From positions 1 to 29,649 of IMG/VR virus record IMGVR_UViG_3300006735_000144: a stretch of DNA of 29,649 nucleotides; one strand, 5' to 3'. The stretch's first letter is position 1. Each line of letters begins with the position of its first letter. The notes under the pieces were generated by a model. The model searched no databases and was not told the DNA's origin. It saw only the letters and a program-made list of their open reading frames with translations. Origin of the DNA: a virus. Below, in pieces: positions 8,918-28,664 of the stretch. The position numbers were made by a program, and so were the translations under genes.

Positions 8918-9396
8918 TTTGATTCCTCCTTTAGTACATCAATTAGTTTTGAGGCTTCGCCTCTTGTCATGTTTGTTGTTATTCGGTTTTCTCCGCCTAA
9001 TTTCTTAATATACTCTTCTTGTCTTATAGTCATCGCTCCATTAGGATTCTTTACAGTTTTAGCACCACCGCCATTCTGTTCAATGTGTTTTCTTCTCAGA
9101 CTCGCAGTAGTTTCATCATGACAACTTCTACAAATCTCAATCACGTTGGTTCTAGAATGTATTAGATATTCTTTGCTTATCTCTCTACATCTATGTTGGC
9201 TGATAATGTGATGCCATTCTGTTTCACCTTCGGTTAGACAAACTGTGCATCTACCAATCTTTACCCACATTTCTCGTTCTTTCTTAACTTCCGCTAAGAA
9301 TTCTTGTTCAATTTCTCCGACTTCTCCCTTTTTCTTTTGAATACGCTCATGTATATTCCTAAGGGTCTTTAAATATGTTCCTTCTTTCTTTCCCAT
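8914..9396 (-). CDS. HNH endonuclease with C-terminal helical domain
   Basis: A 160-residue protein. The centre is a zinc-type HNH: CTVC (Cys50, 53), EWHHIIS (His62, 63), Asn84 in SRTNVIEI and ICRSCHD (Cys89, 92, His93). The tail begins MTIRQEEYIKKLGG and continues TRGEASKLIDVLK, a small helical module seen attached to many phage nucleases and recombination proteins. ATG 9394-9396 overlaps the polymerase stop (TAATG) and is preferred over an upstream in-frame start at 9456 inside the polymerase gene. Could be a free-standing homing-type nuclease or a replication/recombination nuclease; its coupled position in the operon favours the second. Confidence 0.8.
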   Translation of the reverse strand: MGKKEGTYLKTLRNIHERIQKKKGEVGEIEQEFLAEVKKEREMWVKIGRCTVCLTEGETEWHHIISQHRCREISKEYLIHSRTNVIEICRSCHDETTASLRRKHIEQNGGGAKTVKNPNGAMTIRQEEYIKKLGGENRITTNMTRGEASKLIDVLKEESK

Positions 9397-11840
9397 TAAA
9401 ACCACTCCGTTAATGTTTTTTGATAAATGTCCTTTTTGATTAAACCAATGGACCACCCTAAACTCTCAAAAATTAGTTCTGATTTCTTTATCACTTCGGC
9501 TTGGGCAATAAACTGCCAATCTGGAGTGTATTTATCATCCACTTCATGAAAGTTTCTGAATGCAATATAATTTGCTTCATTGGACTTTCCACCCCAAATA
9601 TAATACTTCTCTCGCAGTTCCGCATTATCCATTTTGAAATAGAAATATGAATCACCATTTTCTATTCTACCAATCTTCTGTTGATTGTAATAAATAATAC
9701 CCGCAACGCCCCCAGCAATTGATTTGTAATCTTCTAACTTTTGACGCAATCTACTTCTTTTGCTTATATCTCTAAGACTAACATCACCTGTATATAATTG
9801 TTTATACGAATCATTACAGTATTTGATAATTTCTTCACTATCTGTAAAAGATGATACCATCTCCAATAGTTTCCTTTGATATGTTTTTGCAAATTTAGTT
9901 TCATTACTTTTCTTCATTTCAAAACCCATGACAAAGAATTTATCCTCATCGAGATATTCTCCATCTTTCCATGATAACCAACCGCAGTAACGGTTCTTCT
10001 TAGTAGATAAGAAAAACTTACTGGCAAACTTTTCAAATTCAAGTTCAACAGGTTCTCTAAAAACCTTCTTAATATAATCATTTAATTCAACTCGCAATAA
10101 ATGAGCCTCCGCTACTCCAGATACTTTCACAAAGATTGAATCTGTGTGTCCATAAATAACTTCATAGCCCAACTCTTGAGCCTTAAATGCAGTTTCACGC
10201 ATAGCCCTTCTCGCTGATGCGGTAATAGATTTAGCCATTTCCATATCGCCCCATCCATAATTATCCTTAGCAAGAATACCGTAGAAAGCATTAACGACAC
10301 GCTTTGTAGCCATTTGTGCTGAATCCCACTTTCTATACTCTTCATCAGTATTGGCCTCTTTACGCAACTTCTTATATTCATCACGCATAGCCATTAACTC
10401 TTTTACAGCCTTTGGTAGTAAGCCATCCTTTTTACTGCAATAGTGAATATCTGTTTTACCTTCCCAAAGCATTAGGTTCTTTGGAGTCTGATACCACACA
10501 GGATAATCACCCTCTTCGGGCTTTCTCTTTTTGGTTTCCCATGAGATATTCATTGATGCCATCATTGAAGGGTATAGCGATTTAAAATCAAATACGGCTA
10601 CATTTTCATGTAGACCAAACGTTCCTTCAATCTTAGGATTCATAACGAAAGCGGCTTCAAAGTTTTCCTTTGTTCCCTTTACACCAGAAGGCGCAATCCA
10701 ATCAGCAACACGCATAAAATAAACACCTGCCATTTGTGAATTATGGAACGTAGATTCAAATGGACATTTAATCAATCTTTGTAGTGCCAAACTGTTCTCA
10801 CTAATGTTCATCTTTTCATCAATATCCACACACAATTTTACGTCCTTTATTGCATACTCTAAATACACTTTAGTATCTTCTAGCCACGCACGTTCATAGA
10901 ATTCAGAATCCTGAAACTTAGAAGTGCTAACCTTTCCTTCATCTTCACCTAAAACCAACTTAGAACAATCATCTAATTTTAGACTAGGTAATGTACCCAT
11001 TTGTGAATCAGTCCATAGTCTCTCAAATCTATCCATTAAACAGAATGTAAGACGACCTCTAATTGGTTGTGCGCTATTGATATACTTGTCAATGTTAGAA
11101 TGTATGGCATTCCCACGTTTATATACACCCTTAATATTTCTAAGAGGTGAAAGGCGAGTAGCATCTATTCCCATCTCAACTAGTCGGTTGATAACTTTGG
11201 GAATATCATAACCTAAAACATACCAACCTAGAATCATATCAGGGTCATGTTCTTCCATTAGAGATACAAAGTCTTCCATCATATCTTCTTCTGTCTTATG
11301 GAAATGGTTCACAATATTTAAACCTTCAAAGTCTTTAATCTCTTCTGGAAACTGTTCTGGAAACCATGCAAATAAATGGTATGTTTCCGTATAATTATCA
11401 TACACAGATAATACTGTAATTGCATCATGATAAATACCCTGTTGTTGAACCTCGATGTCAAAATACCATTTACGCAAATTGTATTCTTTTACCTCCTCAA
11501 GTTTGTCCACGCAGTAAAGCCTTCTCATATCTACATCGCCTTGATAGGTTCTGATTCCTCTATTCTCAAGACCTTTCTTGACATTGTATCTATTGTCGGG
11601 ATGACCATAGAAAACTTTCTTTAGCGGATAACCCTCCAAAGAACGAGCATCAGCAAAGGACATTGTTTGTAACTTGTAATATTTATCACCATATCTGCCC
11701 TTGAATACCAATTGTCTTGGAACTTTTTCGTCAATTTTGACATAAAAGTATGGCTCAAATGGCTCTCTATCTATCACACGTTCATTGTTTTCATCTCGAT
11801 AAATAAGTTGTATTTCAGTTCCCACATAATCAATTATCAT
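9396..11840 (-). CDS. polB: Family B DNA polymerase with 3'-5' exonuclease
   Basis: The viral replicative polymerase, 814 residues. Exo motifs: YFDIEV (Asp128, Glu130), GWYVLGYDIP (Asp212), YAIKDVKL (Asp333). Polymerase motifs: A, VFDFKSLYPS (Asp418); B, KRVVNAFYG (from 513); C, YGHTDSIF (His565, Asp567). Motif C has His where the first Asp of DTD normally sits; the second, essential Asp is kept. The C-terminus is QKTLTEWF, a textbook PIP box for binding a sliding clamp. ATG 11838-11840 is chosen because AAGGAG lies nine bases upstream; further in-frame starts (11849, and a TTG at 11873) lie too close to or beyond it. It overlaps the upstream gene by 11 bases. No protein-priming insertions, so replication is RNA/DNA-primed, agreeing with primase and clamp genes nearby. 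Confidence 0.95.
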   Translation of the reverse strand: MIIDYVGTEIQLIYRDENNERVIDREPFEPYFYVKIDEKVPRQLVFKGRYGDKYYKLQTMSFADARSLEGYPLKKVFYGHPDNRYNVKKGLENRGIRTYQGDVDMRRLYCVDKLEEVKEYNLRKWYFDIEVQQQGIYHDAITVLSVYDNYTETYHLFAWFPEQFPEEIKDFEGLNIVNHFHKTEEDMMEDFVSLMEEHDPDMILGWYVLGYDIPKVINRLVEMGIDATRLSPLRNIKGVYKRGNAIHSNIDKYINSAQPIRGRLTFCLMDRFERLWTDSQMGTLPSLKLDDCSKLVLGEDEGKVSTSKFQDSEFYERAWLEDTKVYLEYAIKDVKLCVDIDEKMNISENSLALQRLIKCPFESTFHNSQMAGVYFMRVADWIAPSGVKGTKENFEAAFVMNPKIEGTFGLHENVAVFDFKSLYPSMMASMNISWETKKRKPEEGDYPVWYQTPKNLMLWEGKTDIHYCSKKDGLLPKAVKELMAMRDEYKKLRKEANTDEEYRKWDSAQMATKRVVNAFYGILAKDNYGWGDMEMAKSITASARRAMRETAFKAQELGYEVIYGHTDSIFVKVSGVAEAHLLRVELNDYIKKVFREPVELEFEKFASKFFLSTKKNRYCGWLSWKDGEYLDEDKFFVMGFEMKKSNETKFAKTYQRKLLEMVSSFTDSEEIIKYCNDSYKQLYTGDVSLRDISKRSRLRQKLEDYKSIAGGVAGIIYYNQQKIGRIENGDSYFYFKMDNAELREKYYIWGGKSNEANYIAFRNFHEVDDKYTPDWQFIAQAEVIKKSELIFESLGWSIGLIKKDIYQKTLTEWF

Positions 11841-12057
11841 TTCTGTCATCTCCTTCTCGCCATTCTCTATCAACCTTTACTCTAACAGTAAATAGTTCTA
11901 AGTCATTGAATAGTTCTATGATAGCCCATTCAATATTATCCTTTACTGAATCTATAATATTAAGTTCAGTTGCTTTTTCAGGATTAGGGTCATAAATAAC
12001 TTGATAGTTTTCATCATTAAGATTAGCCCTAATCGTTACTTCTATTCCTCGCTTCAT
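11830..12057 (-). CDS. Small unknown protein
   Basis: A 75-residue protein with predicted beta-alpha pattern (begins MKRGIEVTIRANLND) and a charged tail ending DDRNDN. AGGTGATG precedes its ATG. It overlaps the upstream gene by 28-29 bases in another frame and the polymerase by 11. No family recognised. Confidence 0.55.
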   Translation of the reverse strand: MKRGIEVTIRANLNDENYQVIYDPNPEKATELNIIDSVKDNIEWAIIELFNDLELFTVRVKVDREWREGDDRNDN

Positions 12058-13109: not shown

Positions 13110-13886
13110 TCAATTCCTCAATCTTGGCGCACGAAGTACGGTAACTTTTCTGTTAGCAAATACTGTTGGCCTTTCATCATCAAAAAGAATGACCAATTCA
13201 TCATCATCTTTGATAATATTACTAATCGGTAAAGACAACTCAACAGTAGCATCACGGTTTGTAGTAGAATCACCATAGCCCTCGACAAGTGTTTCAACCA
13301 TCTGATTGTTTTCAGAAGAAGAAATGTTCAGATTAGGATAACTCCAATCTAGTTTGTAAATTGAATTACCTACACGTTCAGCCAGATTAACTGCCTTGAC
13401 CACAGTATCAGAACGTAGATTTACAACTGTCTTCAACTTTAATGTATCTGTAACGGCTATACCATCTTCATCCTCATTTGCTAGAATAGTCCTGTTATCC
13501 AAATCTCTAAGTCTAGCACCTAACTTTTCTACCACACTCATGTTATTATGAGTATTTGCAGGGGGAATGGTAATAATGCTACCATCACACCTAACTTCTA
13601 GATTCTTACCAAAGCGTAATTCCATGTTATCAGACTTGACAATATATTTCAACAGAATATCTGTATCAATAATAAACGTACCTTTACCTTCATGGCTAAC
13701 TACATCTGCTCTATAACAAACATATGTAAATTCGTTAGCGTTTTGAAAATACACATCATCGTCAATTTTAATAACAACATTGGAAGATAAAGAACCTGTC
13801 TTATTACTTCTCCCATCATTGTATTTACCTCTTAGTGTGCAAATCTTAATTGCTTTTTCTAATTCGTTTCCTTCTATCACTATCAT
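13110..13886 (-). CDS. PCNA-like DNA sliding clamp
   Basis: A 258-residue protein of the right length for PCNA (about 245-260). The C-terminus DDELVILFDDERPTVFANRK followed by VTVLRAPRLRN aligns with the end of archaeal PCNA (acidic strands, then 'YLLAPR'). The N-terminal part has the alternating strand/helix pattern of a clamp domain (ELEKAIKIC as first helix). Overall divergence is large, so the call rests mainly on the C-terminus, length and neighbours (RFC, Sak4-type ATPase, SSB, polymerase with PIP box). ATG 13884-13886 is chosen over a GTG nine bases upstream because AAGGTG is then at proper spacing. Confidence 0.75.
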   Translation of the reverse strand: MIVIEGNELEKAIKICTLRGKYNDGRSNKTGSLSSNVVIKIDDDVYFQNANEFTYVCYRADVVSHEGKGTFIIDTDILLKYIVKSDNMELRFGKNLEVRCDGSIITIPPANTHNNMSVVEKLGARLRDLDNRTILANEDEDGIAVTDTLKLKTVVNLRSDTVVKAVNLAERVGNSIYKLDWSYPNLNISSSENNQMVETLVEGYGDSTTNRDATVELSLPISNIIKDDDELVILFDDERPTVFANRKVTVLRAPRLRN

Positions 13887-13895
13887 TTTTCTCAC

Positions 13896-16789: not shown

Positions 16790-17698
16790 TCATTGTTTTA
16801 TACTTGCCACGAACCATGCCACCAAAACTTTCGGAGTTACACTTCTGCTTCTCCATTCTGTTTCTCCTACTAGGGCTACTACCTTAAACTTAGTGCTAGG
16901 TGGTAAATCCATATCTAATACAGATTGTAGGAGTTTATTGCATATATCCTTTACAGAATGTCCTGCCGTTACAAGACGGTTTAGGAAATCCAAAGATTCC
17001 CCATGCTTGTCATCTAAAGCATTCTGAATACATAATTTGTAAGGGACGATGTTTTCTCGATGCAAATTCTTTGGTGTTTTGCCAGAATAAATACACGCTT
17101 GTAATTCATTGATTGCTCGTCGCATATCGCCTCCAGAAATCTCCACCAAAGTTTCAACATCTTCCAACGCCATCATCACATCATTTTTCTTCGCTATTTC
17201 TAACAGCATATCTTCAACGATATAACTGTTAATTGGTTCAAAGAAATAGTTTGCACAACGACTTCTCAAAGCCTCGTCTACTCCATAAACATCGTTGCAG
17301 GTAATAATAAATCGAACATTGGTTGCCCGTTCCATTGTTCTCTTCAACGCTCTTTGTGAATCTCTTGTCATGCCTTCAATTTCGTCCAACAAAACAATCT
17401 TGATTTTGTTATCAGAAACTGAACCATAATTAACAAAGTTTGTAATAGTTTGTCTAACTGTTTCTAGTTTCCTATCTTGACTGGCGTTAATCTCCAAGAA
17501 ATCAGCGTCTTTGTCATCGCCTAAAAATTCATTACCGATAACATGACTCGCTGTTGTCTTTCCTGTTCCAGGTCTTCCTGCTAATAATAGATTAGGGAAG
17601 TCGCCTTTGTTTTTCCATGTACGGGCATCTTCAGTAAATTTAGTCTGCCCTACAATCTCTTCAATCCTTTTTGGTCTATATTTTTCTGTCCAATTCAT
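16790..17698 (-). CDS. rfcS: Clamp loader small subunit (RFC-S)
   Basis: A 302-residue AAA+ protein that opens the sliding clamp and loads it on primed DNA. It begins MNWTEKYRPKRIEEIVGQ, the RFC N-terminal signature, then Walker A GRPGTGKTT (41-49), Walker B IVLLDEIEG (DEIE instead of DEAD), sensor 1 FIITCND, the SRC arginine-finger motif in LRSRCANYFFEP, and the GGDMRRAINELQ lid motif. A helical collar follows; total length is slightly under the archaeal norm (about 320). ATG 17696-17698 has AAGGAG nine bases upstream; an ATG nine bases earlier lies directly on that site. Confidence 0.95.
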   Translation of the reverse strand: MNWTEKYRPKRIEEIVGQTKFTEDARTWKNKGDFPNLLLAGRPGTGKTTASHVIGNEFLGDDKDADFLEINASQDRKLETVRQTITNFVNYGSVSDNKIKIVLLDEIEGMTRDSQRALKRTMERATNVRFIITCNDVYGVDEALRSRCANYFFEPINSYIVEDMLLEIAKKNDVMMALEDVETLVEISGGDMRRAINELQACIYSGKTPKNLHRENIVPYKLCIQNALDDKHGESLDFLNRLVTAGHSVKDICNKLLQSVLDMDLPPSTKFKVVALVGETEWRSRSVTPKVLVAWFVASIKQ

Positions 17699-17795
17699 TT
17701 TCTTCATCTCCTTTCAATACCCCTTTTCCTTTACAAGCGGGGCAACTCATTTCGATAGCCATTCCTGAGCCATCACAGTAATTGCATTTTTTCAT
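17676..17795 (-). CDS. 39-residue DnaJ-type half zinc finger
   Basis: Begins MKKCNYCDGSG and continues to CPACKGKGV: two CxxCxGxG motifs (Cys4, 7, 18, 21), i.e. one of the two zinc centres of the DnaJ/Hsp40 cysteine-rich domain, without J domain. It overlaps the end of the GroEL gene by 23 bases and the start of RFC-S by 23, in separate frames. Next to a chaperonin pair, a substrate-binding or redox helper role is attractive, but isolated CxxCxGxG modules also occur in unrelated small viral proteins. Confidence 0.6.
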   Translation of the reverse strand: MKKCNYCDGSGMAIEMSCPACKGKGVLKGDEENELDRKI

Positions 17796-19326
17796 CCTTA
17801 ACACCAATAATGCAATCAGCCGTCATCACATAACTAGCCACACTAACTGCGGCTTTTAGTGAAGACTTTACTACATCAACAGGGTCAATAATTTGCCCTG
17901 ATATAATCCAATCTCTACTTCTCCCATCATACTGATAACCTGCCTTTAGGTTATCCAATACAAGTTCAGGCTTAACAGTTTGACCCGTTAAATTGTAATA
18001 TAGTTTGTTAAACACGGAACGACACGCTACAATAAATGCCTTAGTAATTTCATCACTATCAAACATAAGAGCCGATACTCCGTAAAGAGCAAGTCCACTA
18101 CCTAAAACAACTCCATTGTTTAAAGCGGCTCTAGTAGCATTTAGACAATCATCAATTCTATCCATTTTATTTCTAATTTCTTGTTCAGAAAGTCCGTGAA
18201 TATAAATAACTGCACCGCTTCCTTTAATTCTAGAAATTCTATCTAGATATTTCTTTTGATAAAATTCGTTGTCAGTTAAATTCATGTCTTCTTCAATTGC
18301 GTTTAGTCTTTTCTCTATCAATTTGTCATCCTTTTCAAAGTCTACAAATGTTGAATAATCTTCTGTTACGGTGGCAACTCCACAAGTTCCCATATCTTCT
18401 AGAGATACATTCTCTAACTTCATATTCAAACCTGTATCGAAAAAGTTTCCACCCGTTAATGTAGCCAAGTCACCCATTCTATCATCCTGCCAGAATGAAA
18501 TGTCTTCCGCTTGTAAAATACAGGCATTAATGTTACCATTCATTTGATTCATCAGGTACGAATTTATTACAGGTAAAGTTACAGACTTTAGCATAAAAAT
18601 AATGGGTCGCTTTTCTTCGACAGAAATCTCCAATGCGGGTAACAATTCTGAGAAATTATTTACATCAGTATTTGAGAACACTAGAAGTGGATTCTCAAAG
18701 TTTTTCTTCTTACCCATTACTCTAGAAATAAGGGGACTAATATAACCCTTCTTACTTTCATACCCATCCGTAACTTTGTATTCATCTTTACCATACGGTG
18801 AAGGTTCAATTGTGATAATACCTTCTCGTCCAATTTCTTTAATTGCCGAAGATATTAGTTTCGCAATCCCTTCATCATTGTTAGCACTAACAAGAGCGAC
18901 TTCATACAAGTCATCAGACTCAATATCAATCTCTCTTTTCATTACATCTAAAGCAGCCAAAGTTTGCTCTAGTCTGTTTTCTAAAGTATCCCGAATTTGA
19001 ACACCGCTAATATCCTCAAACTTCATACATTCTTTAATCAATGCTTGAGCAATAACAATAGAGGAAGTCGTTCCATCTCCTGCACCCTGTTGGGCTTTAT
19101 TAGCAACCTCAATCAAAAGTTTAGCACCAATATTTTTCACCTTATCTTCAAGTGAAATATGTCGGGCTACTGTAACTCCATCGTTGATTACCAATGGGGG
19201 GAGGTCATCTCTTCTATCTATAATTACACTCTTTGTTGCAGGGCCAAGAGTTACTGAAACGGCATTAGCCAATTCATCAATACCCTCAAACAAATGTTGC
19301 TTTGCTTCATCTCCATGATAAATCAT
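17773..19326 (-). CDS. groL: Group I chaperonin (GroEL/Hsp60-like)
   Basis: A 517-residue chaperonin that would form a folding ring for virion or replication proteins. It is group I, not thermosome: INDGVTVARHISLEDKVKNI, GAGDGTTSSIVIAQAL (Asp84 at the ATP site), RIDDCLNATRAALNNGVV (aligning with GroEL RVDDALHATRAAVEEG and its ATPase Asp398), AGYQYDGRSRDW and GQIIDPVDVVKSSLKAAVSVAS all follow bacterial GroEL. It is about 30 residues shorter than GroEL (548) and lacks the GGM repeat tail. The ATG overlaps the stop of the GroES-like gene (ATGA), so both are made together. Archaeal hosts mainly use group II chaperonins, which makes this pair noteworthy. Confidence 0.93.
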   Translation of the reverse strand: MIYHGDEAKQHLFEGIDELANAVSVTLGPATKSVIIDRRDDLPPLVINDGVTVARHISLEDKVKNIGAKLLIEVANKAQQGAGDGTTSSIVIAQALIKECMKFEDISGVQIRDTLENRLEQTLAALDVMKREIDIESDDLYEVALVSANNDEGIAKLISSAIKEIGREGIITIEPSPYGKDEYKVTDGYESKKGYISPLISRVMGKKKNFENPLLVFSNTDVNNFSELLPALEISVEEKRPIIFMLKSVTLPVINSYLMNQMNGNINACILQAEDISFWQDDRMGDLATLTGGNFFDTGLNMKLENVSLEDMGTCGVATVTEDYSTFVDFEKDDKLIEKRLNAIEEDMNLTDNEFYQKKYLDRISRIKGSGAVIYIHGLSEQEIRNKMDRIDDCLNATRAALNNGVVLGSGLALYGVSALMFDSDEITKAFIVACRSVFNKLYYNLTGQTVKPELVLDNLKAGYQYDGRSRDWIISGQIIDPVDVVKSSLKAAVSVASYVMTADCIIGVKDEKMQLL

Positions 19327-19547
19327 TCAACCACCCCAATAATCTGTGTCTTGTTTAAAGCCAATAACTTCTCATGTCCCAAATAGAAATTTGAACCACC
19401 GAGATAAATTATTGTCTGTCCTTTTTCATACGTTTCAGAATCTACAACTGTGGCGAGATTAACTTCACCACTAACCATAATTCCTGTCTTCGTTTTGCTC
19501 TCCTTTTCCTTTGCTATTGTATAGCCATTTTCTGCTTTTATCTTCAT
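19323..19547 (-). CDS. groS: GroES-like co-chaperonin, shortened
   Basis: A 74-residue lid protein for the adjacent GroEL. The mobile loop is recognisable in KTKTGIMVSGE, with IMV in place of the GroEL-binding IVL tripeptide; the C-terminus LLALNKTQIIGVVE matches GroES 'vLimseSDIlAive'. GroES is 97 residues, so about 20 are missing, mainly around the roof hairpin and first strands, as in phage-encoded short lids. It precedes groL with an ATGA overlap, the bacterial groES-groEL order. GGTGATAAC precedes the ATG. Confidence 0.8.
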   Translation of the reverse strand: MKIKAENGYTIAKEKESKTKTGIMVSGEVNLATVVDSETYEKGQTIIYLGGSNFYLGHEKLLALNKTQIIGVVE

Positions 19548-19710: not shown

Positions 19711-19867
19711 ATTCCAACACCGCCTCTTCAGGTGTTTTATCCGACTCCCACTTCTCCCTTAAATATTTCATAGGGTAGTGGTCATGGGAACTTGATAAAC
19801 AACCCAACCATCTAGAAAAAGACACGCCCAAGAATCTCCTCAGCGTTTTGAAATTATTCGCTTGCAT
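19694..19867 (-). CDS. 57-residue unknown protein
   Basis: Begins MQANNFKTLRRFLG and ends VLEYEENI; an N-terminal basic helix and a charged acidic tail. The ATG overlaps the stop of the AAA+-like gene by one base, and its 3' end overlaps the next small gene by 17. No motif recognised. Supported only by continuous coupling and a full-length frame between known genes. Confidence 0.45.
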   Translation of the reverse strand: MQANNFKTLRRFLGVSFSRWLGCLSSSHDHYPMKYLREKWESDKTPEEAVLEYEENI

Positions 19868-20700
19868 CAAAAATCCTCCAACTTTTTTGTCCTGTCTTTT
19901 CTTACAGAAACTCTTCTTCTTTTCTCTTTCTTTATCCCCAAAATCTTACACTCCTTTTCATCTAATTTCTTAGCCGCCCACCGAGAATATTCTTCATCTT
20001 TCAATAAGTCTTTTACCAAATATCCATCTGATGACCGCAATCCCAACTTTCTACAAATGTCAGGAAACGGACTTACGCTTTTACGCTTTGGTGGAACTAC
20101 ACTTCCGTATGTTCCCAACTTTGAATATGCTAACAATGGGTAAAAGTAATCCCCACTATTCATCATCGCTTTTGAAACGTGCATCAACTTTTGATTCTTA
20201 GGCTGTGAAGCAACCACCCATGAAAGTATTTGCATTGGTGGCGGTTGATATGTTTTCAAAACCGATAAATATTCATCTCTATCTGGCATTCTAATATAGG
20301 CATTTGTCATAGCCCATATGTTGTCATCTACAACTTTGTAATCCTGCGAGTTTTTCGCTTTTGCTCTTAGGATAATTTGATTGTAATTCTTTCTACCTGC
20401 CATCTTAATTTGACAGCAATCAATTATCACTTTGCTTACATCTTTTTTGTTCTTACTAGTTAGGACAACATTGCGACCTGAGTAAATCAAATCCAATATC
20501 TTATCCTTATCGGGCTTGTAATGCACATCTTCAATGATAATGCCAATCTCCAAAGGCCAAGAATATACGTCACTAATTGGTATGTCGTTGGCATAGAATA
20601 TTCTATACTCTTTACAACCAATCAATGTCTTTGCCTTTGTAGTTACACCCGTTCCAGATTTACCTACTACTAAGAATGGTTTGTTCGTCTTCGTCTTCAT
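19867..20700 (-). CDS. Degenerate AAA+ protein, candidate RFC large subunit
   Basis: A 277-residue protein that starts like a P-loop ATPase, FLVVGKSGTGVTTKAK, but Val replaces the catalytic Walker A Lys; IGIIIEDVHYKP stands where Walker B should be and VVLTSKNKKDV where sensor 1 should be. Residues about 155-215 (QPPPMQILSWVVASQP, then SKAMMNSGDYF and LGTYGSVVPPK) resemble the collar of archaeal RFC large subunits ('WI.EN.P...A...LS.AD.....'). The tail is highly basic and ends TKKLEDF, which could be a reduced PIP box. The reading is a non-hydrolysing clamp-loader large subunit partnering RFC-S. Resemblance is weak; an unrelated inactive AAA+ is the alternative. GAGAGGG precedes the ATG; it overlaps the upstream gene by 41 bases. 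Confidence 0.5.
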   Translation of the reverse strand: MKTKTNKPFLVVGKSGTGVTTKAKTLIGCKEYRIFYANDIPISDVYSWPLEIGIIIEDVHYKPDKDKILDLIYSGRNVVLTSKNKKDVSKVIIDCCQIKMAGRKNYNQIILRAKAKNSQDYKVVDDNIWAMTNAYIRMPDRDEYLSVLKTYQPPPMQILSWVVASQPKNQKLMHVSKAMMNSGDYFYPLLAYSKLGTYGSVVPPKRKSVSPFPDICRKLGLRSSDGYLVKDLLKDEEYSRWAAKKLDEKECKILGIKKEKRRRVSVRKDRTKKLEDF

Positions 20701-21070
20701 TTAAAACCCTCTCAAATCTATACTTACTATCCTCTTCTAAATGTTCACCATTTCTAACCATGTTCATAACCCTCTTGAATTTACGCCATGACTTACTCTT
20801 TGTCGGTGAGTCTGGCATCAAATCACATACTCTCAGTATATCGAATCTTCTCCTAACAATAATTGAATCTACTCTACGACCACGTTCTCTAATCATCACA
20901 TGATGAATGTTCATCGCTGTTAATGACCTGCTAACAGGTTCAAGTAAATGTTCTGGCAATCTCATCATAATCTTATAACGAGGTTCATACCCACCCTTTA
21001 CTGTTGTCATAGAAAAAGATGGTATTGCTGTTAATATAAAAATTCCTTGCATTTGTCCTTCTGAATACAT
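20660..21070 (-). CDS. Possible LAGLIDADG-fold DNA-binding protein
   Basis: A 136-residue basic protein. GIFILTAIPSFSM, then YEPRYKIMMRLPEHLLEPVSRSLTAMNI and SIIVRRRFDILRVCDLM give the helix-strand-strand-helix-strand-strand-helix rhythm of one LAGLIDADG half, but the catalytic acidic residue of the first helix is not evident. It may have kept DNA binding and lost cutting. ATG 21068-21070 overlaps the stop of the zinc-finger gene and has GGTGG upstream. Fold call tentative. Confidence 0.4.
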   Translation of the reverse strand: MYSEGQMQGIFILTAIPSFSMTTVKGGYEPRYKIMMRLPEHLLEPVSRSLTAMNIHHVMIRERGRRVDSIIVRRRFDILRVCDLMPDSPTKSKSWRKFKRVMNMVRNGEHLEEDSKYRFERVLNEDEDEQTILSSR

Positions 21071-21297
21071 CACGGTCCACCTAAAGTATCATAGAGTGTG
21101 GTTTCCCACAAATGATACTCCTTGTGTCCTTTAATAAACATTCCTGCTTTATCTTTAGGTCCGATAAATGTTTCTCCACAAATAAGACAATGCACTTTGA
21201 CAATCTCGGACATTTCACGGATTCCGTCTTGTCCAATAATGTCTACAATGTTTCCTACTGTGAGGGGGCTATTAAAGTCTAATTCTTCATCCCACAT
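21070..21297 (-). CDS. C2H2-type zinc-finger protein
   Basis: A 75-residue protein with HCLICGETF and GHKEYHLW: Cys37, Cys40, His58, His62 (C-x2-C-x17-H-x3-H), longer in the loop than a classical finger. The N-terminal half is helical and acidic. Probably a small DNA-binding regulator of the kind common in archaeal viruses. Coupled by one base to the following gene. Confidence 0.65.
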   Translation of the reverse strand: MWDEELDFNSPLTVGNIVDIIGQDGIREMSEIVKVHCLICGETFIGPKDKAGMFIKGHKEYHLWETTLYDTLGGP

Positions 21298-22317: not shown

Positions 22318-22715
22318 TTTTTTAATCCTCCTTCGCTATAAAAGTGTCTTACATTTCCTACTATATCAACACAAATCCACATAGAACCCACAGGGCTATC
22401 AACCCTAAATGTAGTCCATCCTAACTTCAACATTCCCTCGCTTACAAATTCATAAGACGTTCCAAAAAGACGATTGTATTCCAAAGAAACAAACATCAAA
22501 TTGTCCCGTATGTATTGTATTACATGGGGATGTTGGATATTAACCCATAACTCTCCTTCAACTTCATAATTTCCATTGGTGCAAATTTTACAACCAGAAT
22601 TACATTCCATAGGACAACTTATCACCCTATGTTCAGTAGTGGGGAATCTCACAACTTGAATTGTTCTGTCCACACTACCTTCGTCATTACTTCCTTGTCT
22701 TCCAATTTGTCCCAT
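22296..22715 (-). CDS. Cysteine-rich unknown protein next to E1/JAMM genes
   Basis: A 139-residue protein with a cysteine knuckle ISCPMECNSGCKIC (C-x3-C-x3-C-x2-C) and a C-terminal half of strands and aromatic residues (WTTFRVDSPVGSMWICVDIV). ATG 22713-22715 has AGGAG eight bases upstream but lies 67 bases inside the JAMM gene; a GTG at 22650-22652 overlapping the JAMM stop (GTGA) would give 118 residues without losing the cysteines. It follows E1 and JAMM in the same coupled run, so it could be their partner or target; no E2-like signature is secure. Confidence 0.55.
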   Translation of the reverse strand: MGQIGRQGSNDEGSVDRTIQVVRFPTTEHRVISCPMECNSGCKICTNGNYEVEGELWVNIQHPHVIQYIRDNLMFVSLEYNRLFGTSYEFVSEGMLKLGWTTFRVDSPVGSMWICVDIVGNVRHFYSEGGLKKWLALEK

Positions 22716-23350
22716 TTCAAATACTCCTGATTTCCAATAACAATTGCTTGGTCTAAGATAGGTCTCCAGTTACGCAAAGTATTGGTATCTGTTCCAGACC
22801 AAAATGCTGAACCAAATGGGTGAGTATGAATCCAACATTTAATGGGTATTTTCATACCTGCAACCATAACTCCACCATAGTCTACATACCCAGGCGAACC
22901 ACTATTCATAAATAAACGTCCATCTCGGTCAATAATTACTGATATTTCTAATCCAGGTAATATGTTCTTAGATGCATTCCAAATTGCTTCAATAAATCTC
23001 TCATCTGATGGGTCATCTTCTCCCTTAAAAGATAGATGTTTCCAGACTTCTTTTATTTCCTTTTGCCAGACCTCAGGTTCAATGTCAGTATAGCGGGCAT
23101 TTAGTGGCCCGCTTTTAGGTTCATTACCCTTGAAGAATGTTCCCATTTGTGAACCATGATAACCCTTGTCATCATTGAATTCTGTGATAGTGTATTGAAC
23201 AACATCAACAGCATCAGCGTAAATAATTCCACCTTCAACAAAGATTTGTTCAATCACTACATCTTCTTCTTGTTCTATTTCATCCAACCTTTGGTTTAAC
23301 AAAAGGTCATCCGAATATTCTCCTGCCTTTCCAACTCTAATTGTTTTCAT
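22649..23350 (-). CDS. JAMM/MPN-family metallopeptidase
   Basis: A 233-residue protein. The C-terminal half carries the JAMM motif WIHTHPFGSAFWSGTD: His175, His177, Ser185, Asp188 in exact H-x-H-x7-S-x2-D spacing, binding a catalytic zinc. Such enzymes cut isopeptide bonds to ubiquitin-like tags or process tags and tail proteins. The N-terminal 120 residues are of unknown fold. The gene overlaps the E1-like gene as ATGA; E1 plus JAMM neighbours are the core of prokaryotic ubiquitin-like modification modules. No ubiquitin-like substrate ending in Gly-Gly is recognised nearby. Confidence 0.85.
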   Translation of the reverse strand: MKTIRVGKAGEYSDDLLLNQRLDEIEQEEDVVIEQIFVEGGIIYADAVDVVQYTITEFNDDKGYHGSQMGTFFKGNEPKSGPLNARYTDIEPEVWQKEIKEVWKHLSFKGEDDPSDERFIEAIWNASKNILPGLEISVIIDRDGRLFMNSGSPGYVDYGGVMVAGMKIPIKCWIHTHPFGSAFWSGTDTNTLRNWRPILDQAIVIGNQEYLKWDKLEDKEVMTKVVWTEQFKL

Positions 23351-23910
23351 ATTGACAACCTCACATGTGTATGTGTTTTATCTCCAGCAAAGTATCTTTG
23401 AACCCATTGTGCGCCCATTCCTGCAATTGCAACGTGGGTAAAATGAACACCCATATTACTTCTGTCCCATTCATCACCTTGACAACTAAAGTTACCATCT
23501 GGTCCATTTGTCAATATGGCAAAGTTATCAGGGTTTTCTTGGAAACTAATTAGTAGACCATTACGGGCTTGCGCTCTCAGGTCTAACCATTTAATTTCTT
23601 CAATATCTACAAGATAAAGTAGTCGTCGCAGTTCAAGATTATCTACACAACAGATAACCAAATCATATCCTTTAAGTTGTTGCTTTGTAAGTACACGATA
23701 AGGATGACTATGCACACTATCATAGCGTTTAGCCATTACTTCTGTCTTGTGCTTTCCAACATCGTCTTCGTAAAAATCCTGATATGACAGGTTCTTTTTC
23801 TCTACAATGTCATCGTCCCACACATTAATGTGATATTCGTTCACTCGGTCAAGCAGGGGAATAAGGAAACTTCCAATTCCTCCTGCGCCTATTACCATTA
23901 TTTTCTTCAT
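23347..23910 (-). CDS. E1/ThiF/MoeB-like adenylyltransferase
   Basis: A compact 187-residue E1-like enzyme. VIGAGGIGS (6-14) is the nucleotide loop, WDDDIVEKKNLSYQDFY (31-47) with GKHKTEVM is the Mg/ATP segment, VICCVDN the metal-binding Asp, and Cys143 in FSCQGDE is a candidate thioester cysteine. It would adenylate the C-terminus of a small protein and perhaps carry it as thioester. It is shorter than ThiF/MoeB (about 240-250), with a reduced C-terminal half and no zinc CxxC pairs. Coupled by ATGA to TFB before and JAMM after it. Confidence 0.88.
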   Translation of the reverse strand: MKKIMVIGAGGIGSFLIPLLDRVNEYHINVWDDDIVEKKNLSYQDFYEDDVGKHKTEVMAKRYDSVHSHPYRVLTKQQLKGYDLVICCVDNLELRRLLYLVDIEEIKWLDLRAQARNGLLISFQENPDNFAILTNGPDGNFSCQGDEWDRSNMGVHFTHVAIAGMGAQWVQRYFAGDKTHTHVRLSI

Positions 23911-24521
23911 ATTATTTCCTCCAATTTTTTCTTTTTGTTTAGCACGTTAGTAGCACTTAGGTTGAACAGATTTGCGACCTTCCTATGCGACATATCATTA
24001 GTCATGTAGACTACTGCGGCTATTAATGATGGTGTTAAAACCATTTCATCCGCAACTTTCTGCATAACTTCTATGTCAAAATCTACTTCTAAGGTATCGC
24101 AAAGACTGTGGGCTTCTTCGATGTTGTAGTGCCAATCAACATCCCAAAAGTCCTTCAACCTATTAATCATTCTTTTTACTTTCGTCGTTCTTATTCCTAG
24201 ATATTTACAATGTTTGTAAAGATTAGTCGGCCTATTCAAATTACGCATATGAATATGTGCTACCGTTGCCGACATCTCAGCCATTGAAAATCTTCCACTA
24301 TGAATATATACATATGCTGAACGCATATACTTCTTCGCCTCATTAAGATGAGGTAAATCCCATTCCCTATACAATAATGTGAGGTCTATGAATTCTCTAT
24401 CAATATCTCTATTTTCAGAAAACGAGACAATTTTAGATACATTCACAAGACCACACTCCCCACAAACGTAGACCTCTTTTACTCTAGTTAAAAGACGGGA
24501 TTTGCAATTCAGACAGGGCAT
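23907..24521 (-). CDS. tfb: Transcription factor B (TFIIB-like)
   Basis: A 204-residue archaeal-type initiation factor. The N-terminus is a zinc ribbon, MPCLNC then VCGEC (Cys3, 6, 20, 23). Two helical cyclin-like repeats follow (about 65-135 and 140-204); the last, LTPSLIAAVVYMTNDMSHRK then VANLFNLSATNVLNKKKKL, matches the second TFB repeat with its helix-turn-helix. It would recruit host RNA polymerase to viral promoters with TBP. Shorter than cellular TFB (about 300), mainly through a reduced linker/B-finger. ATG 24519-24521 is preferred over an in-frame TTG; it overlaps the upstream gene by 38 bases. Confidence 0.85.
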   Translation of the reverse strand: MPCLNCKSRLLTRVKEVYVCGECGLVNVSKIVSFSENRDIDREFIDLTLLYREWDLPHLNEAKKYMRSAYVYIHSGRFSMAEMSATVAHIHMRNLNRPTNLYKHCKYLGIRTTKVKRMINRLKDFWDVDWHYNIEEAHSLCDTLEVDFDIEVMQKVADEMVLTPSLIAAVVYMTNDMSHRKVANLFNLSATNVLNKKKKLEEII

Positions 24522-25899
24522 CAAAATCAACTCTATATTTTGGTTTCATTTTCTTGTAACTTCTCATTGTTGAAACACGGTCAAAACTAGCAGTGTCATT
24601 TAGAAAAGCCATAACCCTTGACGCAAATTGGTCGCCAATAGATACATCTACATTCGATTGGTCAATACAAATACCACTCAGGGTAAGAAAGGCTTGACCA
24701 CTTTCTTTACAATAATACATAGCCCCAGTATTGCGTCTTAAGTTGATGGTAGTCATGCCATAGTAGTTATCCTTAGGAACTAAATCGTATCTAGAATCAG
24801 GGTTAGTTGCCATATTAACACAATTAGACATTAGATTATCCCAACTTTCTATTTCATAGGAATTAACTGAGTCCCATCCGTCTGCATCAAGAGCCTCATT
24901 GTTTGTAATTTGCAAGCGATAATTTCTAATATCAACAGCGACTTGACTCGAAACGTTTTGTCTACCTGTTGATACCTTTTCATAATTCACTCTACCAGAT
25001 ACAACCCAATCTAATTGATTACCCTTTACAACCATTACCGTGTTATACCTACTGTCATCTTTTTTAAAGTCAAACTTCTTGATTCTTGTAGGGAACATTT
25101 CTGGCAACCCATCCAATAATTCTAGACTTCTTTTTGTAACCAATTTTGTTGAAGTATTTTGGTCCAAATATGCATACATATATTTAATTTGCACATCCGT
25201 TAAATGTTCACCCGTGCAATTAAAATACAATTCCTCAGGACTCATAGTAGAATATTTGTTATTTCTACCCGCACCCGCATTGAACAAACTTCTGAATGAG
25301 GTTTGCTTCATAGGCATCCAACATCCTTCATACAATTGTATAGCGACTTCCTTACGGCTAATCAGACTGACCTTTAACAAAGAAGTTTCCCATCTATTAT
25401 TTAGGATATAATTAAACTTCAAATTGTTGGTCATAGAGGCCAAAACTTCTGGCACGGATTCCATAGAATTGTATACAAATTCATCCACTTTATCTTGATT
25501 CCATGACGCTAGTTTGCTAAAGCAACCTAAAAAGATTGGACCTGTCATGTAGGACTTGATAGGAAAACCATTGCAGTAAGTTTTGTTACCTACTCTAAAG
25601 AAATGTAGATAACTACTCCCCATTTCTAAGTCTACCTTTAGTGAGGGAACAGATGGCGTTCCAACGGGCTTTGTAAATGTAATCCAACCATAGGCTTTTA
25701 GAGTTCCATTCAAAATCTTTGAAACGTGTTTAGTAGCCATCGTTCCATCATCTTGTGTTCCTGCCCTATTATTGGGTTGTGAGATATTGTAGACGGTATT
25801 CCTACCTTCTCGCATTCTAGCATGAGGACTAGTATAGGTAAAGGTTGTATTACTTGTGGCCGTTCTGTAACCTGAGTTTCTCGATAGAACATATTTCAT
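24484..25899 (-). CDS. Large unknown protein (471 residues)
   Basis: The largest unassigned gene. No P-loop, nuclease or membrane signature is visible. The N-terminal 60 residues are Ser/Thr/Asn/Arg-rich and look disordered; the rest is mixed alpha/beta with many Asn, Tyr and Trp, and a Ser/Asp-rich end. Cysteines are scattered (CNGFPIKSY, GCFSKL, GICIDQ) without pairing. It lies just upstream of TFB in the same operon and is linked by ATGA to a small gene before it. Single-copy, full length. A DNA-metabolism, virion or host-interaction protein are all open. Confidence 0.7.
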   Translation of the reverse strand: MKYVLSRNSGYRTATSNTTFTYTSPHARMREGRNTVYNISQPNNRAGTQDDGTMATKHVSKILNGTLKAYGWITFTKPVGTPSVPSLKVDLEMGSSYLHFFRVGNKTYCNGFPIKSYMTGPIFLGCFSKLASWNQDKVDEFVYNSMESVPEVLASMTNNLKFNYILNNRWETSLLKVSLISRKEVAIQLYEGCWMPMKQTSFRSLFNAGAGRNNKYSTMSPEELYFNCTGEHLTDVQIKYMYAYLDQNTSTKLVTKRSLELLDGLPEMFPTRIKKFDFKKDDSRYNTVMVVKGNQLDWVVSGRVNYEKVSTGRQNVSSQVAVDIRNYRLQITNNEALDADGWDSVNSYEIESWDNLMSNCVNMATNPDSRYDLVPKDNYYGMTTINLRRNTGAMYYCKESGQAFLTLSGICIDQSNVDVSIGDQFASRVMAFLNDTASFDRVSTMRSYKKMKPKYRVDFDALSELQIPSFN

Positions 25900-26570: not shown

Positions 26571-26782
26571 TCTTTCACCTTTCCATCTTTCATTTCATAG
26601 TTTTGGTTTAACCTAAGATAAGAACGTATTTCATTTACAGTTCCTATCATTTTTCTTTTTAATCCATCATGGCGAGGCAGGTCAATCCACGCCTTTTGGA
26701 TTTGTTCTTCGCTTCTCCAATTACCGTCTTCCATAATTGTATTGACGGGCTTGAAAAAAGTTTCTTTGTTTCTAGATTTCAC
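26552..26782 (-). CDS. Small unknown protein, GTG start
   Basis: A 76-residue basic protein read from GTG 26780-26782, (M)KSRNKETFFKPVNT. AGGTGG lies just upstream, and the GTG overlaps the reductase stop by 11 bases. A longer reading to 26839 would run deep into the reductase gene. Function unknown; coupling to the reductase may only reflect dense packing. Confidence 0.5.
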   Translation of the reverse strand: MKSRNKETFFKPVNTIMEDGNWRSEEQIQKAWIDLPRHDGLKRKMIGTVNEIRSYLRLNQNYEMKDGKVKEWRMKV

Positions 26783-28664
26783 ATAGACCACCTGCACACG
26801 CAATTTCACCTTGAAGGTCTGTATTGTCCTCCTGTTCAATAACTTGTGTCATGTCTAATCCCTTTAACATAGCGACCATTTCAAAATATTGTTCTTCTGT
26901 AATATCTTCAAATGGTGCTTGAGTATAAGTGCCACCATCATATGGAAGCACACTTAATCCATTGTAGTATTCTCGATTATTCCACATCCAATTACCTACG
27001 CTATCCCACTCGTTTTCTTTAACAGAAATAGTAGCGGAAACATTGTGAGTATTGAGGCCATCTCGGTGTCCATTCTTTACCCAATGTTTTGAATAATTTC
27101 GCACACGTTCTAGGAACTCGAAAACATTTTCTGTTCTTGTACTTGCACCTTCAGGAGCCTTTTGTGGAATTGATATTACCGCAGTATCATGTGGACGGAA
27201 TGCTTCATCTTCTACAATTTCTGGCAATGTGTTTAGCAAGTAATTGTAAATGGCTTCATTCTTACCAACCCTAATGCGACGGATGTAATAATCATTATGC
27301 CATGCGTGAATGCCTGAGGAAGTTCCCAAAACTAGAGAAGTAGTTCCCGCAGGTTTAACGCAAGTTGTTCTAGCCGCAGGATTGATACCAAAGTCTTCAG
27401 CAAATTCAGCATTACAATCACGGATTAAATCATTAGACGCTTCCATCAATTCTTCAAAGTTGTAATTGTCCAAGATTCCACTAGCAATACCTGTCATACT
27501 GATACCCAAAAGAGCATCCTTTTCTGTATTCTTTTTCCAAATATCTCTTAAGTAATGGAAGTCTGTATATCCTGCTTGCATTGTTGCAATTAGTGTAGCA
27601 TATTTTACACGTCGAAGGAAGTCTAATTCAGACTCAACGGACGACGCATTTATCTCTACAAGATTACAGAATTGATAAGGTCTTAGAGCAATTTCACAAC
27701 ATGGATTTGTCCCCCAATCTTTATCGTTGCTAAAGTAAATCCCAGGTTCACCAGAACCAGACTCTTGAATTCTTTTCCACAGTTGCAGGAAGAAAGACTT
27801 TGTGATTCTGTTCCTAAGTAATACTGCTGAATTGTTAGCCCTTCCTCTTTGTGGATTCAATTCCCACCAATTGCCAGACTTACAAGTAATCATTTCCATA
27901 TCGTCAGCCGAGAATAAACTAATTAGAGCCGCACGTCGAATACCGCCAGCCAAAACTGCATCAGCCAAATGACACATAACATCATGTGCTTGTAGTGGTG
28001 TAAGTTTATCACCATCATGCATTCCTTTTAGCATATTTTCTACCTTTACCAAACATTCTCTTAATGGGGCAGGTCCAGGTGCTTTACCTCCTGATGTTAC
28101 CAAAATAGAACCCTTTGGTCGAATGTCCGAATAATCAAAGACTGGTGTAGAAACGTTTTGACCAAAATAACTCTTAATCAATACCTTAACTGCATCAGCC
28201 CATCCTTCGATAGAATCGCTAATCAAATACCTTCGCTTTCGGTTAGGGTTAGGCTTTCGGATTTCTGGTAATTGTTCAACGTGATGTCGTTGAACAGAAT
28301 AACCCACACCTGTTCCTCCCAAAAGTAAGAAAATTGATTCAGAAAAACTCTCCAAAGAATCAACAGGCAAATATGCACAGTTGTAAATTCGGTTAGGTGC
28401 AACTTCGATGGACTTTCCACCAAATTGCAAACTTCTCATGCTTGGCAGGATTTTCTTTTCTTCCACCATTTTGTAGGCAGTTTCAATCAATTCCGTATAG
28501 CCTTCAATTTTCCCATACTTTTTGAGATGCATTTGCTTATTTCTCTCAATCAATTCGTTCCATGTTTCTCTTCTATTTTGCTCGTTTAGATACCGTGCAT
28601 ACTTCATATGAACAGTAATGTCGCTCAAAATCGCTTTATCGTCTATTGTTGTTGTTGTTGTCAT
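26772..28664 (-). CDS. nrdJ: Class II (adenosylcobalamin-dependent) ribonucleoside-triphosphate reductase
   Basis: A 630-residue enzyme that makes dNTPs from NTPs using B12. Active-site residues match the Lactobacillus leichmannii reductase: Cys96 (NCAYLP, like C119), Cys322 and Glu324 in NPCCEI (C408, E410) and Cys333 in FCNLVE (C419); the 11-residue spacing is identical. The C-terminal redox pair is CAGGLC (Cys623, Cys628; five apart, as C731/C736). CVKPAGTTS, a nucleotide-binding loop, is also present. It is about 110 residues shorter than the 739-residue monomeric enzyme. Needs host cobalamin. GAGGTGA precedes the ATG. Confidence 0.95.
   Translation of the reverse strand: MTTTTTIDDKAILSDITVHMKYARYLNEQNRRETWNELIERNKQMHLKKYGKIEGYTELIETAYKMVEEKKILPSMRSLQFGGKSIEVAPNRIYNCAYLPVDSLESFSESIFLLLGGTGVGYSVQRHHVEQLPEIRKPNPNRKRRYLISDSIEGWADAVKVLIKSYFGQNVSTPVFDYSDIRPKGSILVTSGGKAPGPAPLRECLVKVENMLKGMHDGDKLTPLQAHDVMCHLADAVLAGGIRRAALISLFSADDMEMITCKSGNWWELNPQRGRANNSAVLLRNRITKSFFLQLWKRIQESGSGEPGIYFSNDKDWGTNPCCEIALRPYQFCNLVEINASSVESELDFLRRVKYATLIATMQAGYTDFHYLRDIWKKNTEKDALLGISMTGIASGILDNYNFEELMEASNDLIRDCNAEFAEDFGINPAARTTCVKPAGTTSLVLGTSSGIHAWHNDYYIRRIRVGKNEAIYNYLLNTLPEIVEDEAFRPHDTAVISIPQKAPEGASTRTENVFEFLERVRNYSKHWVKNGHRDGLNTHNVSATISVKENEWDSVGNWMWNNREYYNGLSVLPYDGGTYTQAPFEDITEEQYFEMVAMLKGLDMTQVIEQEDNTDLQGEIACAGGLCEI

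Follow-up and report, generated by a model that had tools for sequence, protein, structure and literature searches.

The window, that is, the whole stretch of 29,649 nucleotides analysed here (IMG/VR record IMGVR_UViG_3300006735_000144), carries on its minus strand a gene proposed to encode the A subunit of a viral clamp loader, together with the genes of its putative partners. The features of the locus are listed below, with residue numbers of the target protein.

19867..20700, minus strand: proposed clamp-loader A subunit gene (reduced RFC large subunit), 277 aa, ATG at 20700
20638..20664, minus strand: Walker A GKSGTGVTT, residues 13-21, with Lys19 replaced by Val in the sequence
20521..20541, minus strand: Walker B, IIEDVH region, residues 54-60, with the order E-D instead of D-E
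20449..20469, minus strand: sensor-1 strand VVLTSKN, residues 78-84, Thr81-Ser82 invariant in 60/60
20413..20421, minus strand: SRC arginine-finger position, residues 94-96, Cys96 in 59/60
20278..20280, minus strand: Arg141, candidate sensor-2 arginine by position, invariant in 60/60
19951..20244, minus strand: helical collar-like region in the predicted model, residues 153-250, with a weak collinear profile match to the C-terminal half of RFC-L
19870..19890, minus strand: C-terminal PIP-like motif TKKLEDF, residues 271-277, after the family consensus
19323..19547, minus strand: short ORF, probably a co-chaperonin, judged GroES-like from its context and without a match in Pfam
17773..19326, minus strand: chaperonin (Cpn60), which in the window virus separates the A-subunit gene from RFC-S
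16790..17707, minus strand: RFC small subunit, proposed partner, with Walker A GRPGTGKT, Walker B LLDE and SRC all intact
13110..13895, minus strand: probable sliding clamp, 261 aa, weak profile match to bacterial beta-clamp
9396..11873, minus strand: family B DNA polymerase, ending in YQKTLTEWF, a canonical PIP box

A sequence-only reading had described 19867-20700 as a P-loop protein of 277 residues, and this was borne out by an uninterrupted minus-strand ORF with conserved homologues. In 20 simulated windows (first-order base transitions) the longest stop-free run was 205 codons, against 277 in this ORF; given these simulated runs and the abundant homologues, it is not a chance ORF. One further locus (L001) encodes an identical protein, and two others (L002 and L003) encode proteins of 96 and 95% identity. 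Divergence among the window, L002 and L003 amounts to a dN of about 0.02 and a dS of 0.25-0.40, and the dN/dS of about 0.07 therefore places the protein, valine included, under strong purifying selection. When the protein was used as a single query, Pfam, PHROGs, PDB sequences and phage records all returned nothing usable. The start of the gene is overlapped by 41 bp by a 137-aa ORF (20660-21073, minus strand), which has homologues in 117 family loci and no match in Pfam or PHROG.

Scans of IMG/VR with a broadening query were employed to collect the family, and the number of encoding stretches rose from 11 to 114, 279 and 374. At least 129 distinct full-length proteins, extracted from the loci kept, were obtained from marine magrovirus-type contigs, which reach 86-97 kb. 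The sole match to the family in genome_contigs is gene L090:9023-9850 on the magrovirus-type contig NZMJ01000073.1, filed in a bin of the bacterium Maricaulis; this is probably a virus contig misassigned to that bin. Magroviruses are viruses of abundant ocean archaea. They are reported to have a replisome of their own and are described as encoding PolB, a primase, a clamp, a clamp loader and chaperonins (PMC10768690). The target gene shares the window with a family B polymerase, RFC-S, a probable clamp, Cpn60, an ERCC4 nuclease and a primase-like gene, and because this setting fits that description the window virus appears to be a magrovirus.

Several other genes of the window, all on the minus strand, deserve mention in their own right. 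At 22649-23910, a ThiF/E1-like gene (PF00899, E 1.6e-17) immediately precedes one whose product carries a JAMM-like HxH-x7-S-x2-D motif (HTHPFGSAFWSGTD); the two possibly serve as a pair for ubiquitin-like conjugation and deconjugation in a virus of archaea. The pair is adjoined by a gene (23907-24530) in whose product a TFIIB-type zinc ribbon is weakly recognised, and 26772-28664 encodes a ribonucleotide reductase carrying the class II (B12-dependent) insertion domain.

The change of the Walker A lysine to valine in GKSGTGVTT, noted at first sight of the sequence, was confirmed, and the Val codon is GTA in all four copies. Among the 129 relatives, the residue at this position is Lys in 125, Val in three, which constitute the window clade, and Arg in one. 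In a maximum-likelihood tree the three Val sequences form one clade with full support and the Arg sequence falls elsewhere among Lys-bearing relatives; these separate placements make the two replacements look independent. The further claim of a non-hydrolysing large subunit stands in part: the lysine is lost in the window clade, whose A-position ATP site would not be active, but the loss is not a trait of the family, whose P-loop is intact in 125 of 129. The description "degenerate" thus holds for the window clade and not for the family as a whole.

The remaining AAA+ motifs were compared across 60 family representatives. Walker B in the family reads IIIED, with Glu57 invariant (60/60) and the following residue D in 51 and E in 9. 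Arg is absent among the residues listed for the family at the SRC position, whereas RFC-S keeps SRC in 60 of 60. Clamp loaders require no arginine finger in the end subunit at the A position, which has no neighbour to serve, and its absence from the family agrees with such a placement. In the predicted model, Arg141 stands at the start of helix three in the lid-like region; since it occupies the same place as the sensor-2 Arg of RFC proteins, it is a sensor-2 candidate by position.

Structure prediction with AlphaFold2 from 69 homologues gave a model with a pLDDT of 85.4 and a pTM of 0.53, an earlier prediction from 7 sequences having been poor (pLDDT 64). In a Foldseek search against the PDB, nearly all of the best 50 matches were clamp loaders, the top including T4 gp44, MgsA, Ctf18, RFC1-5 and the E. 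coli loader, and a viral library likewise returned RFC and clamp-loader proteins. VIA-align placed T4 gp44 first (Z 11.2, residues 5-200) and aligned RFC1 over residues 1-265 (Z 9.7, rmsd 11.8), while the AAA+ cores of RuvB, FtsH and p97 scored nearly as well, but only over residues 1-124. Clamp loaders dominate the structural matches. The pTM, together with TM-scores of 0.3-0.46 between the model and clamp loaders, leaves the domain arrangement of the modelled A subunit uncertain. Within the model, the AAA+ fold is secure and the collar is likely; the collar-like segment proposed earlier corresponds to a predicted helical region at residues 128-254.

A profile of 60 family members was searched against 2,528 proteins. 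Outside the family, RFC-L ranked first, with a best E of 4.2e-6 spanning the AAA+ core, compared with 0.028 for RFC-S and 0.029 for gp44, and the best outside relatives were viral and haloarchaeal RFC large subunits. For HH profile comparison, RFC-L was represented by sequences of haloviruses, of two haloarchaeal plasmids and of four viral contigs. Over the AAA+ half, RFC-L was matched at 97.6% with a score of 74, and the controls RFC-S, gp44 and a RadA-like ATPase encoded by the same virus scored 50, 49 and 36; single-pair hhalign E-values are uncalibrated and served for ranking against controls only. The profile-profile check suggested by the sequence-only reading thus returned RFC-L as the closest known family. 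The C-terminal half gave a weak collinear match to RFC-L. With a profile of six sequences the score was 28.0, the highest of 60 column shuffles being 22.9; with a profile of ten sequences it was 21.9, a value equalled or exceeded by 1 of 200 shuffles. The converse search with the RFC-L profile retrieved family members at E 1.6e-7 and weaker; it shows just AAA+ kinship, because many other AAA+ proteins match too.

Among curated models, the NCBIfam RFC-L models were weak matches to the family (best 7.8e-4) and the clamp-loader family phrog_168 matched 13 of 28 members (best 2.4e-6). No family match reached any curated RFC-family cut-off, and no family gene came near the 280 bits of the NCBIfam RFC-L model. 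The family lacks the N-terminal RFC box (W-V-E-K-Y-R-P) that RFC-L and RFC-S share, its proteins beginning about 10-20 residues before the P-loop. Because of the missing box and the curated cut-off, the target protein is not filed as a canonical RFC-L.

The gene neighbourhood ties the family to RFC-S. Wherever the contig extends far enough downstream of the family gene, as it does for 121 distinct genes, RFC-S follows on the same strand, at a gap of -10 to 2504 bp (median 405 bp, n=121), and in some viruses the stop codon of the family gene adjoins or overlaps the RFC-S start. In the window, the two genes are separated by the chaperonin pair. RFC-S keeps its Walker A in 60 of 60. Each of 20 contigs of 86-97 kb holds one family gene and one RFC-S, and in none of them was a canonical RFC-L found above the RFC-L model cut-off; that model picks up RFC-S and, in a few contigs, a faint signal inside the family gene. 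This absence of RFC-L is strong, although not final, since the 20 large contigs carry no completeness estimate.

At the C-terminus, the PIP-like LEDF pointed out earlier proved to belong to a longer motif, KKLEDF being the end of the family-conserved QxxLx[DE][FYW]. About half of the members end in this motif, and most others, the window included, in a version without the Q. Haloviral and haloarchaeal RFC-L end in QSVLDF (KSQSVLDF in Druskaviridae), QSGLSDFM and QTGLGQF, and the clamp-loader protein RFC-B of Haloferax has a PIP box (PMC7776575). A profile of 26 homologues of the probable clamp, searched against the PDB, gave a weak match to the N-terminal domain of the bacterial beta clamp 1vpk (E 2.3e-4) rather than to PCNA. 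As the viral polymerase ends in a canonical PIP box, the clamp would evidently accept this type of motif.

The target protein is very probably a shortened and divergent homologue of archaeal RFC-L that takes the A position in a clamp loader encoded by the virus itself. The original identification as an RFC large subunit is supported by the RFC-L profile, the fold, the constant synteny, the lack of a canonical RFC-L, the missing arginine finger and the PIP box, and the protein most likely works like RFC-L as a divergent homologue of it. An improbable alternative is that this AAA+ protein interacts with the clamp in order to regulate or unload it, or is the loader of a helicase, with RFC-S pairing with the RFC-L of the host. 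The resemblance of the core to RuvB, FtsH and p97 would agree with such a role, as would the weak matches of the DnaC-like phrog_3277 to 11 of 28 members and the fact that PIP boxes are common to many clamp clients. However, the closest profile is that of RFC-L, the clamp-loader matches reach residue 200-265 whereas those to RuvB, FtsH and p97 stop near 123, the one-to-one pairing and adjacency with RFC-S is strict, and the arginine-finger pattern is complementary to that of RFC-S.

True homology to T4 gp62 rather than to RFC-L is more doubtful still. The two would share the proposed job and adjacency to a gp44/RFC-S gene, and both have a short hydrophobic-aromatic C-terminal end, that of gp62 being KKKALEW; yet the target has an AAA+ module and gp62 has none (PMC3331839). 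Homology to gp62, expected from both C-termini, was searched for and rejected, with an HH probability of 0.3% and a family-profile E above 1. Least credible is decay of the gene in the window clade, with host RFC-L taking over: Lys19Val in an otherwise conserved P-loop could be read as loss of function, but the dN/dS after the substitution disfavours decay, the ORF is intact, gene order is maintained, and the PIP-like end, Walker B and lid Arg are kept in all window-clade members.

As the A-position subunit, one copy of the protein would cap a spiral of four RFC-S chains, in a proposed 1:4 stoichiometry. Its AAA+ module and collar may hold the end of the ring, and its C-terminal PIP box, observed as a motif, would bind and position the viral clamp. 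RFC-S, which retains intact Walker A, Walker B and SRC motifs, would supply the ATP hydrolysis that drives loading. ATP binding by the A subunit at the A/B interface probably persists in most relatives but should be abolished or greatly weakened by the Lys to Val change of the window clade, and loading would there be left to the RFC-S sites, as in phage T4. On balance, we favour by a modest degree the reading of an evolutionary intermediate, namely that magroviruses swapped RFC-L for a reduced A subunit that keeps its AAA+ module, that in the window clade this module is structural and ATP-free, and that ATP sites confined to RFC-S arose here independently of T4.

A clamp loader requires an A subunit. 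RFC-S is the only clamp-loader subunit named in the ICTV genome map legend for magroviruses (PMC10768690), and the family described here would fill this gap in abundant ocean viruses. It would also indicate the extent to which an RFC large subunit can shrink, and, since one clade has lost the Walker lysine naturally, the contribution of A-site ATP binding to loading could readily be compared within the family.

Compared with known systems, the nearest profile match to the AAA+ half of the family is RFC-L of archaea and Druskaviridae (HVTV-1 gene 87, 417 aa). The two have in common an LT-type sensor 1 followed by xVPxxIxNxC, the lack of an SRC arginine and a PIP-like C-terminal end, and both RFC-L and the target gene are encoded beside PolB and RFC-S. 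In contrast, the target has 277 aa and RFC-L 417-508 aa, a reduction by a third or more; the target starts about 10 residues before the P-loop, with no RFC box, the family has Walker B in the order E-D instead of D-E and a shorter collar, and the window clade, unlike RFC-L, has lost the Walker lysine. RFC-S and T4 gp44 resemble the family in their AAA+ fold and are the leading clamp-loader matches in Foldseek, but they have the RFC box and the SRC arginine finger, both absent from the family, and RFC-S is present as a separate intact gene. The loaders of T4 and archaea combine four copies of one ATPase subunit with a single, distinct A subunit; in archaea that subunit, RFC-L, is itself an active ATPase, whereas T4 gp62 lacks an AAA+ module (PMC3331839). 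The proposed role resembles that of gp62, as does the pairing with the gene of the small, ATPase subunit, and the window-clade A subunit would likewise be ATP-independent; gp62 differs in that it is devoid of an AAA+ module and shows no recognisable sequence similarity to the family. The family is intermediate between archaeal RFC-L and gp62, with the AAA+ module kept, the N-terminal box gone and the ATP site lost in one clade.
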